A DNA stretch of 55,603 nucleotides. Origin: Deltaproteobacteria bacterium (GTDB lineage: Bacteria > Desulfobacterota > Desulfobacteria > Desulfobacterales > Desulfosarcinaceae). The stretch spans positions 1 through 55,603 of the forward strand of contig JAHLLR010000031.1 of the NCBI GenBank assembly GCA_020444075.1, read 5' to 3'. Below are positions 23,608 through 30,362 of the stretch, piece after piece. The notes under the pieces are model-generated. The model was not told where the DNA came from. It worked only from the letters and a program-made list of their open reading frames with translations, and made no database searches. The position numbers and the translations under genes were made by a program. Within the stretch, counting starts at the first letter, position 1. Every line of letters starts with the position of its first letter.

Positions 23608-23694
23608 TGAGCAGATGGCCAAAGCTGAAAATAACCTGACCGGCATTCCGGGAACGAACAGCCAGTGGTCGCGTGGATTGCCTGGCAATGGCAG

Positions 23695-24171
23695 TCAGCC
23701 CGGGTCGGCGTCGATTGCTTTTATCAGATTCATAATCTCTTTGTTTGAAGGGATATCCGTCATCGAATGACCGTAATGCACAAACCGGAGCATTCCGGAC
23801 TTATCGACAAGCATCTGTGCAGGTAGTCTGCCCAGCTTAAACAAATTGGCCTCCTGTCCATATAATTTTAATATCCTGTGTTCCGGGTCGGGCAACCCGA
23901 TAAACGGCAGATCTTCTTTCTTCCAGAATTTTTGAAATGATTCGCCGTTTTCCGGTCCGACAACTATTATTTCCGTACTCAATTTTTCGAAACGTTTATA
24001 GTCTTGGCGCAACTGCGCCATGTGCCTTCGGCAGAAGGGTCAAAAAAACCCACGATTAAAAACCACGAGCACATTTTTTCGGCCCGTGAAATCCGAGAGG
24101 GATACGCTGTTTCCGGAAAAATCATTCAACGTAAAGTCAGGTGCATGTGTGTTTAGCGCCACTCTGGCCAT
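23695..24171 (-). CDS. Peroxiredoxin-like selenoprotein (UGA at codon 44 read as Sec)
   Basis: 158-codon AhpC/TSA-fold protein probably reducing peroxides. The ATG at 24171 has GAGGAG upstream and begins MARVALNTHAPDFTLNDF, the normal peroxiredoxin N-terminus. The frame reads VLVVFNRGFF, then TGA at 24040-24042, then PFCRRHMAQLRQDY and an intact C-terminus. Relatives carry Cys (CPFC/CPYC) at the TGA position, so a U-P-F-C redox motif is predicted. A hairpin 20-35 nt after the UGA fits a bacterial SECIS. If UGA were a true stop, only a 43-residue stub or a start at Met 24021 without the active site would remain. It lies 37 bases after the Usp gene on the same strand. Confidence 0.85.
24005..24020 (-). 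promoter_or_regulatory. Candidate bacterial SECIS hairpin
   Basis: In the mRNA a 6-bp perfect stem UGGCGC/GCGCCA closes an AGUU loop with G at the second loop position. The loop starts 26 nt after the UGA. Bacterial SECIS elements are known to need a G in the first two loop positions and a UGA-to-loop distance of roughly 16-37 nt. A second, closer hairpin (CCUUC-UGCC-GAAGG, 24025-24038) lies between it and the UGA and might stack or compete. Confidence 0.7.
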
Positions 24172-24208
24172 TTTTGACTCCTCACTGTTTGAAACCCTTC
24201 AGGTTTAT

Positions 24209-25108
24209 TCACAGCTTTTCGTTGCGATAGGGTACCGCCAGCACCGGCACCGGTGCGTGCCTTAATACCAGTTCGGTGGTGCGCCCCATTACCGTGCCTT
24301 GTTCGAATTGCTTGTGATGGGCGCCGATGACAATCAGGTCGCAGTCAATCTCCCTGGTCAGGTCGATGGCCTGGGCGGCGGCCGTTCCTCTGCGCACAAC
24401 GAGATCAATGTCATTAAAATCCGGAACCGTCTTCTGTATCCAGGCAGGGAAGTCTTTCTCATCCGCCGCCGTACCGGATTCCAGACTCCGCAAAACGGTG
24501 AGGTGGGCTTCCAATCGGCCGGCCAGGGCGACGGCCACCCGCAGAGCATGGCCGGCGGCGGTGGTAAGATTGCACGGGCACAGGATGTGTTGTATGCGGG
24601 GCCTTGCCTCCGGTTGGGTCGTATCGATAAAATCGGTGATCTTTTGCCGGACGACGAACACGGGTGCTTCGGAGCGATGCAATATACTCTCGGTGACCGA
24701 TCCCAGCATCCAGTGTTTTAGGCCGCTGTAGCCGTGGGTGCCCATCACGACCAGATCGGTCTGGTTCTCGGCCGCGGCCTGCATGACGGCCTCCGCGGGT
24801 TCTGAATCGGTCACGCGATAGCGCATGCGGACTTTTTTGCTGTCGGCGTCGCCCAGAACGCGGCGGACATGCGCTTCAAGCCCATGAATGCCCGCTGCCT
24901 TGGCGTGGTCTATTTCCTTTACCACTTGAGCGGTCAACTCCCGTGATAAATAGCGGGGAACGTCGACGTGCATGGCATGCAGTACGGTCAGGGATGCATC
25001 GAACATACGTGCGCCGACGTGCGCATATTTTAGCGCCAGATCGGACAGTTCGCTCATGTCAACGGGACAGAGAATTGATGTGGGGTTGTAAGACAGTCCG
25101 GGTTCCAT
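24209..25108 (-). CDS. Tandem universal stress protein (two UspA domains)
   Basis: 299 aa with two UspA domains (about 8-150 and 165-297). Each carries the nucleotide-binding glycine signature: GTHGYSGLKHWMLGS with SEAPVFVVR in the first, and GAHHKQFEQGTVMGRTTE with PVPVLAVP in the second. Such proteins bind ATP and help survival in starvation, oxidative or respiratory stress. AAGGAGGAAAG precedes the ATG. It is probably co-transcribed with the selenocysteine peroxiredoxin downstream. Confidence 0.92.
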   Translation of the reverse strand: MEPGLSYNPTSILCPVDMSELSDLALKYAHVGARMFDASLTVLHAMHVDVPRYLSRELTAQVVKEIDHAKAAGIHGLEAHVRRVLGDADSKKVRMRYRVTDSEPAEAVMQAAAENQTDLVVMGTHGYSGLKHWMLGSVTESILHRSEAPVFVVRQKITDFIDTTQPEARPRIQHILCPCNLTTAAGHALRVAVALAGRLEAHLTVLRSLESGTAADEKDFPAWIQKTVPDFNDIDLVVRRGTAAAQAIDLTREIDCDLIVIGAHHKQFEQGTVMGRTTELVLRHAPVPVLAVPYRNEKL

Positions 25109-29204: not shown

Positions 29205-30362
29205 ATGGCAACCATCTGTATCCTCGGTGCAGGGTTGGGGGGGATTCCGATGGCCCTGGAGATGCGGGAGAAGGCTCGTAAGCACGACACGGTCAGGGTG
29301 GTGTGCGATCTGGACCGCTACCAGTTCATTCCTTCCAATCCATGGGTGGCGGTGGGCTGGCGCGAGCCCGCAGAGATCGAGGTCCCGCTTGGGCCAATGT
29401 TTAAAAAGCGCGGCATCGACTTCACCCCGATGGGTGCCGAAAGGGTCGAACCCGATAAAAACCGAATTATTCTTAAGGATGGCAACGGTTGTGAGTACGA
29501 TTTTCTGGTGATTGCCACAGGACCCTCGCTGGATTTCAGTGCCGTTCCCGGCCTGGGACCGCGACCCGGATTCACCCAATCCGTCTGCAAGACCGACCAT
29601 GCGATGGAGGCCTGCAAGACGTGGCACCAATTCGTCAAGCAGCCTGGCCCCATCGTCGCCGGCGCCGCCCTGGGTGCTTCCTGCTTCGGGCCGGCCTACG
29701 AGTTCACCATGATCATGGAAACCGACCTGCGGCGGCGCAAGATCCGCGACCAGGTGCCCATGACCTTCGTGACCAGCGAACCCTATATCGGCCATCTGGG
29801 CCTCAACGGTGTCGGGGATACCAAGGGACTGCTGGAGACTGTTTTCCGCGAAAGGAGCATCAAATGGATATGTAACGCCGGCATCGACGGGCTGGTCAAC
29901 CCCAAAGGGTTCGTGATCGTCAACGCTTATCAGCAGAACCCCATTTTCCGGAATGTATTTGCGATAGGCGTCTGTGTGGCCATTGCGCCCAAGCAGGCCA
30001 CCCCTGTGCCCACCGGAGTCCCTAAAACCGGATTCATGATCGAATCCATGGTGATGGCAACGGCCAGAAACATCAGGTCGATTCTGGATGATCGGGAGCC
30101 GGAGGCCGAACCCACCCTCAATGCCGTCTGCCTGGCGGACTTCGGCGACAGTGGTGTGGGCTTCGTGGCCATGCCCCAGATTCCTCCCCGGAATGTGAAC
30201 TGGTCCTCCCGCGGCAGGCATATTCACCTGGCCAAGCTGGCTTTCGAGAAGTATTTCCTGCACAAGGTGCGCGACGGAATCAGTGAACCCTACTATGAAC
30301 GCTATATCTTCAAGGCCCTGGGAATCGACAAATTGAAAAAACAGGCCAGGACGACTGAGTAA
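29205..30362 (+). CDS. Sulfide:quinone oxidoreductase-like FAD protein, shortened
   Basis: FAD/NAD-linked flavoprotein of the SQR/flavocytochrome c sulfide dehydrogenase group. GAGLGGIPMALEM is the N-terminal Rossmann motif. TQSVCKTDHAMEAC, GASCFGPAYEF, TSEPYIGHLGL, AIGVCVAIAP and PVPTGVPKTGFMIESM are conserved family segments. At 385 aa it is shorter than relatives I recall (about 420-430): the text passes from SIKWICNA directly to GIDGLVNPKGFV, where about 45 residues seem to be missing in frame. A GGAG site precedes the ATG. Whether it still oxidises sulfide is open. Confidence 0.8.
   Translation: MATICILGAGLGGIPMALEMREKARKHDTVRVVCDLDRYQFIPSNPWVAVGWREPAEIEVPLGPMFKKRGIDFTPMGAERVEPDKNRIILKDGNGCEYDFLVIATGPSLDFSAVPGLGPRPGFTQSVCKTDHAMEACKTWHQFVKQPGPIVAGAALGASCFGPAYEFTMIMETDLRRRKIRDQVPMTFVTSEPYIGHLGLNGVGDTKGLLETVFRERSIKWICNAGIDGLVNPKGFVIVNAYQQNPIFRNVFAIGVCVAIAPKQATPVPTGVPKTGFMIESMVMATARNIRSILDDREPEAEPTLNAVCLADFGDSGVGFVAMPQIPPRNVNWSSRGRHIHLAKLAFEKYFLHKVRDGISEPYYERYIFKALGIDKLKKQARTTE

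Follow-up and report, generated by a model that had tools for sequence, protein, structure and literature searches.

Introduction

Judged by domain and motif, the closest described counterparts of the locus reported here are the Prx-like thiol:disulfide oxidoreductases, a predicted selenoprotein family that carries the Pfam domain PF00578 and a UxxC or UxxU motif and is represented by WP_010940744.1 (PMC13188914 Table 1; also PMC1794560). Selenoproteins of this kind have been reported in Syntrophus aciditrophicus, Desulfotalea and Geobacter, and a Prx-like family with the motif UXXC has been reported from the Sargasso Sea. Also described is an AhpC/TSA-like selenoprotein with UxxS, filed as cd02970 in Table 1 of PMC13188914 and as pfam13911 in PMC9312934, and the peroxiredoxin motif with selenocysteine (Sec) is given as PxxxTxxU (PMC13188914). 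The hairpin that directs Sec incorporation is modeled in bacteria (bSECIS) with a loop of 3–9 nt, a stem of 4–16 bp, a G in the first two loop positions, a spacing of 16–37 nt and a minimum free energy (MFE) of at most −7.5 kcal/mol (PMC13188914).

Herein we analyze a gene in a 55,603-nt stretch of a Desulfosarcinaceae genome (the whole stretch is called the window). Its predicted product combines a PF00578 domain with a UxxC motif (U44-P-F-C47), and we therefore assign it, judged by domain and motif, to the published Prx-like thiol:disulfide oxidoreductase (UxxC) kind, which is listed for deltaproteobacteria among others. In contrast to the UxxC/UxxU forms of that kind, the window's relatives also include UxxA, UxxT and UxxE forms. 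“UxxA” is absent from the main text of PMC13188914, and a limited literature search found no selenoprotein with UxxA, which does not show that the variant is unpublished.

Results

The reading frame and its surroundings

The features needed below all lie on the window's minus strand.

23695..24171, minus: predicted coding sequence of the Prx-like selenoprotein, ATG at 24171, 158-residue product when UGA44 is read as Sec, terminal TGA at 23697-23695
24040..24042, minus: in-frame UGA, codon 44, putative Sec44
24031..24033, minus: Cys47 codon, a possible resolving partner for Sec44, not conserved in the family
24005..24020, minus: candidate SECIS apical hairpin, stem 24020-24015 / 24010-24005, loop AGUU 24014-24011
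24178..24183, minus: GAGGAG, Shine-Dalgarno-like by sequence, 6 nt 5′ of the ATG
24209..25108, minus: upstream universal stress protein gene (Pfam Usp, 7.1e-43), ending 37 nt 5′ of the selenoprotein ATG

Translation bears out the claim of an earlier, sequence-only reading that the frame from ATG 24171 is broken by a single TGA, since the 158 codons at 24171-23698 hold one internal stop, at codon 44 (24042-24040). The same reading expected that gene callers would return only a 108-aa remnant beyond the active site, and our mechanical ORF list agrees, giving just 23695..24021 (108 aa), which lies 3′ of the active site. Co-transcription with the universal stress protein gene is possible. A conserved neighborhood that could serve as a functional clue was looked for in flanks of up to about 3 kb and none was found, the largest neighbor cluster being common to 4 of 62 loci. 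Two UxxA members (L095, L099) have a universal stress protein-like gene, identified by eye, ~0.1 kb downstream, to be compared with the upstream one in the window. Elsewhere in the window, positions 29205-30362 encode an FAD oxidoreductase weakly similar to a selenoprotein type III sulfide quinone reductase model (61.7 bits, cut-off 525).

Protein family and fold

The 158-aa read-through product matches the Pfam families AhpC-TSA (PF00578, E 1e-24) and Redoxin (3.7e-20), both matches covering the TGA. An AlphaFold2 model built from a 60-sequence alignment (mean pLDDT 93.0, pTM 0.90) places residue 44 immediately before helix 45-56 and Pro117 just before strand 118-122, which we take to be the cis-proline place of thioredoxin folds. 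Among fold matches Bcp1 (3drn) ranked first (TMq 0.88), AhpE (1xvw) reached 0.85 and ResA also matched.

In NCBIfam the window protein matched SelL_rel_redox (NF040769) best, at 79.6 bits and hence below the 120-bit cut-off for membership. The same model was matched at E ≤ 0.001 by all 60 members of the family alignment (see below), for which the scan returned 23 families at that threshold; the seven proteins scored in full all fell below the cut-offs, and for the remaining members the best E-values imply the same (SelL_rel_redox, 7.5e-26, or ~91 bits by extrapolation against 120). The motif of SelL is UxxU, whereas the window has UxxC. The AhpC/TSA-like UxxS selenoprotein resembles two of our members (L063 and L080) in having Sec first and a fourth residue other than Cys; however, only 2 of the 60 members touch PF13911 (best E 0.00033). 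Sec-containing peroxiredoxins (TxxU) and peroxiredoxins of the BCP/AhpE type share the fold of the window protein, but their chalcogen stands three residues later, in PxxxTxxC/U as against RxxxUxxC in the window's family.

Conservation of TGA at codon 44

Homologous loci were gathered from a phylum sample (297 genomes), a genus sample (13), a class sample (389) and a scan of GTDB contigs, giving 77 loci (L023-L099, where L023 is the window). At E ≤ 0.001 the phylum sample matched in 235 of 297 genomes, mostly through distant redoxins, and the best 30 loci were taken; the genus and class searches were cut at E ≤ 1e-20, and 22 loci came from the GTDB contig scan. Judged by their length, three contigs are represented twice (L024/L055, L027/L061 and L037/L068).

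Codon 44 is TGA in 59 of the 77 loci, window included, or 55 distinct sequences once four duplicates are removed. Two loci (L067, L069) have TGC at this codon within the same motif, and 14 are more distant proteins that show a Cys codon (5), Thr (5), Ser (2) or other residues (2) in column 44. L037 and L068 were left out of this count because the first BLAST piece stopped short of codon 44; the second piece has TGA there, and both enter the 68-locus count given below. Matches at E ≤ 1e-20 came from 29 of the 389 class-sample genomes, with TGA in all 31 matches listed, and in the genus sample 4 of 13 genomes matched at this threshold.

Four further Cys paralogues (L104-L107) all come from one genome (G105), and one of them, L104, is sister on the tree to a Sec form from another genome (L108, G031) with support 100/98. 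This sister pair, together with the mixture of TGA and Cys at codon 44, shows exchange between Sec and Cys within the family. The expectation that relatives carry Cys here is thus true of L067, L069 and L104-L107, but most close relatives have TGA. Two observations that would have told against a selenoprotein had also been named beforehand. A read error concealing TGC or TGT is excluded by the TGA common to 55 distinct sequences, and homologues with scattered stops were not encountered, save for the split L076, the frameshifted L068 and the decayed second copy L109.

In L076 (G005, same genus, ~1887-2019) the gene is split by ~131 bp with a repeat of the HAGLDPAS...NDWIPAYAGMT type, presumably a dispersed palindromic repeat. 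L109 (G368:C58, 1443-1735) carries an additional stop as well as a break in the frame, and an intact copy (L083) is found in the same genome. Three members (L064, L065, L066) come from MAGs labeled KSB1 and Clostridia, which suggests horizontal transfer or binning error.

A covarying hairpin downstream of the UGA

The perfect 6-bp stem with an AGUU loop that had been described 26 nt after the UGA was recovered (UGGCGC-AGUU-GCGCCA); 25 nt separate the UGA from its loop, which puts the first loop base at +26. Its MFE is −10.8 kcal/mol for a 22-nt piece (z −3.66 against dinucleotide shuffles) and −10.0 kcal/mol for the bare stem-loop. With a 4-nt loop in which G is second, 6 bp, a 25-nt spacing and −10.8 kcal/mol, it lies within every printed bSECIS constraint. 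When the same peptide was re-coded with family codon usage in a codon-preserving manner, the window hairpin alone gave p = 0.051, and p ≤ 0.05 was reached by just 21 of the 55 Sec members in codon-preserving shuffles. Single-sequence hairpin statistics were accordingly rejected as proof of a SECIS, the codon-shuffle value being close to chance; what raises the window hairpin above chance is that the TGA is shared across loci and the hairpin is conserved with compensatory changes.

Clade A, to which the window's gene belongs, has 38 members, of which 37 are distinct. The hairpin pairing holds in 95.9% of their pair cells, while in slid controls, with the partner moved by 1–3 columns, pairing fell to 17–66%. 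Double-sided changes occur in 4 of the 6 pairs, which 7 of 500 shuffles attain, and the covariation score was attained by none of 500 column shuffles. At columns 27/34, L063 and L089 each replace G-C by A-U, and do so on separate branches; the other double changes, in L081 and L065/L066 (columns 26/35) and again in L065/L066 (columns 25/36), likewise arise on branches of their own. Codon identity, computed for 34 of the 38 clade-A rows (L033, L066, L076 and L083 left out), exceeds expectation 3.3, 2.9, 2.8, 4.7 and 2.9-fold at codons 48, 49, 52, 54 and 55, respectively, and is elsewhere mostly near 1, with peaks of 2.4 (codon 35) and 2.2 (codons 70 and 91). Leu54 is TTG in all 38 clade-A members, compared with 18.3% of 509 other Leu codons. 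This peak of codon constraint coincides with the location required of a SECIS, its figures being inflated by related rows.

Isolated stems scored against the −7.5 kcal/mol limit passed in 22 of the 38 members of clade A, in 5 of the 18 Sec members outside it and in none of the 6 Cys members. Among the 16 clade-A misses, 8 sit at −7.3, and the stem is broken or shifted in L025, L032 and L090; by this scoring the Sec form L108 and L090 have no qualifying hairpin and L025 almost none. Clade B, the UxxA branch (15 rows), has a different hairpin (CATCTG-GGN-CAGATG) with 85.6% of cells paired, for which covariation was looked for without being found and RNAalifold returned no consensus structure. 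An Rfam scan of 23650-24230 gave no match at E up to 10.

Selenocysteine machinery

The sequence-only reading proposed a search of the genome for selA, selB, selC and selD, and all four are present. The source genome has selA on contig C67 (607.9 bits), selD on C88 (371.5 bits, with one in-frame TGA of its own) and one tRNA-Sec (selC) above the cut-off on C148 (50.6 bits), which ARAGORN also calls. It holds two divergent full-length selB genes, at G000:C27:650-2542 (L110, 372 bits) and G000:C148:23297-25192 (L111, 295.9 bits), and only the latter adjoins the tRNA-Sec, its match starting 29 nt after it. Genomes with two SelB proteins turned up no report in a limited literature search; among 47 further genomes a second selB match above the cut-off was found in G092, G348 and G384 (partial in G384).

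Overall, selB is present in 44 of these 47 genomes. Two TGA carriers (G069, G270) gave no selB at E ≤ 1e-60, an absence that is unsure because their assemblies consist of hundreds of contigs. In the genomes of the Cys forms L067 and L069, selB was found zero times in G674 and once in G675. G001, from the same genus, is a one-contig genome with the selenoprotein gene and selB on that contig, which means that their co-occurrence in G001 is not an artifact of binning.

The active site

The 62-sequence tree set comprised 55 sequences chosen for TGA at codon 44 and 7 chosen by hand, so that Sec or Cys at position 44 was built into it. We recounted over 68 of 83 loci taken solely by similarity to the window protein (E ≤ 1e-20; L109 enters this count only). 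Position 44 is Sec (TGA) in 61 of these loci and Cys in 7, and position 47 is C in 44, A in 12, S in 7, T in 4 and E in 1. On the 62-sequence tree, position 47 changes at least eight times and position 44 at least four times, between Sec and Cys. In the 60-member alignment (A3, the 62 sequences minus L033 and L076) Arg40 and Pro117 are invariant, and Cys47 is kept in 38 members, window included. The natural versions of the motif on this one fold are UxxC, UxxA, UxxS, UxxT, CxxC and CxxS/T.

The alignment agrees with the earlier claim that the Sec aligns with the Thr of TxxC, as found in the BCP-type proteins L044, L046, L047 and L049. The PxxxTxxC/U motif of peroxiredoxins was not found: R40 and U44 stand in place of P and T, so that the motif reads RxxxUxxC, and position 47 is not conserved. 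The accompanying proposal that Cys47 is the peroxidatic residue did not survive, given Sec or Cys at position 44 in 68 of 68 loci, a variable position 47 and no PxxxT. On this pattern, catalysis most likely lies with Sec44, and Cys47 would be an optional resolving partner. A distant relative, L051, has the true selenoperoxiredoxin layout, with Thr at 44 and TGA at 47 (TPVU).

Discussion

A selenoprotein with a bacterial SECIS, as first proposed for this locus, is strongly supported by the conserved TGA, the covarying hairpin and the presence of selABCD; the case is made by comparison across loci, the window hairpin alone being weak. We consider it highly probable, on comparative sequence grounds, that UGA44 is recoded as Sec and that Sec44 is catalytic, a judgment that leaves the substrate aside. 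The product would be a small thioredoxin-fold selenoprotein of the Prx-like (AhpC-TSA) superfamily, probably cytosolic, in which UGA44 would be decoded by SelB and tRNA-Sec as directed by the hairpin at 24020-24005 inside the coding sequence. By alignment and model, Sec44 opens a thioredoxin-like (U/C)xxC motif, four residues past Arg40 and before helix 45-56; its most likely role is the reduction of a disulfide or a hydroperoxide. In the UxxC branch, which includes the window, Cys47 probably resolves the oxidized Sec through an internal selenenylsulfide, and in the UxxA/S/T/E relatives an outside thiol would have to do so.

Within this explanation, Sec44 might be the center of a glutathione-peroxidase-like one-Sec peroxidase instead of a thiol:disulfide oxidoreductase, with Cys47 irrelevant to turnover, a possibility that we take seriously while giving it somewhat less than even weight. 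The UxxA/T/E/S clade and, independently of it, L063/L080 have lost Cys47 and keep Sec, the fold matches include both ResA and peroxiredoxins, and the UxxT and UxxS forms presumably resemble GPx and monothiol redoxins. Against it, Cys47 is retained by the 38 of 60 aligned members that include the window, and no peroxide-specific residue was identified in this family.

A classical peroxiredoxin, in which Cys47 would be peroxidatic and Sec44 simply stands for the Thr of TxxC, is improbable. Positions 44 and 47 do align with the Thr and the peroxidatic Cys of BCP-type relatives, Bcp1 tops the fold matches, and most of the similarity-picked loci retain Cys47; however, 24 of those 68 have A, S, T or E there and none lacks Sec or Cys at 44, the four Cys paralogues have C44 without C47, R40 and U44 occupy the P and T places of the absent PxxxT, and the true arrangement (Thr44, TGA47) is seen in the distant L051.

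A sequencing error or pseudogene, with the TGA as a lesion in an ordinary Cys gene, is rejected as extremely unlikely, since a TGA that ends a run of seven T, and the split, frameshifted or decayed copies seen elsewhere (L076, L068, L109), weigh little against an identical TGA across 55 distinct sequences drawn from many assemblies, an intact frame on either side and compensatory changes that preserve the hairpin. We likewise reject, as having hardly any chance of being true, a reading of UGA as some other residue by stop reassignment or plain read-through, which would explain the open frame across codon 44 but not the terminal TGA of the same gene, the Cys at position 44 in some relatives, or selABCD together with a covarying SECIS-type hairpin.

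With recoding and catalysis at Sec44 as the preferred reading, we tentatively propose, at well short of even confidence, that the family may be a widespread subfamily, in part one-Sec, built on the scaffold of peroxiredoxins, in which the catalytic Sec precedes the peroxidatic position of true peroxiredoxins by three residues, or about one helical turn, an invariant Arg replaces the motif Pro, the CxxC-type partner has been lost repeatedly (UxxC to UxxA/S/T/E) and Sec/Cys swaps continue at position 44. For annotation, a standard ORF caller yields a 108-aa fragment without the active site, and no NCBIfam model names proteins of this family above its cut-off, most members being judged from best E-values. 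The UxxC/A/S/T, CxxC and CxxS/T versions offer ready natural material for testing what a selenol enzyme gains from a resolving cysteine, and the UxxA/S/T/E series is the part most deserving of specialist attention. If the one-Sec subfamily is real, it would represent a natural series from thioredoxin-like UxxC to glutathione-peroxidase-like one-Sec chemistry.
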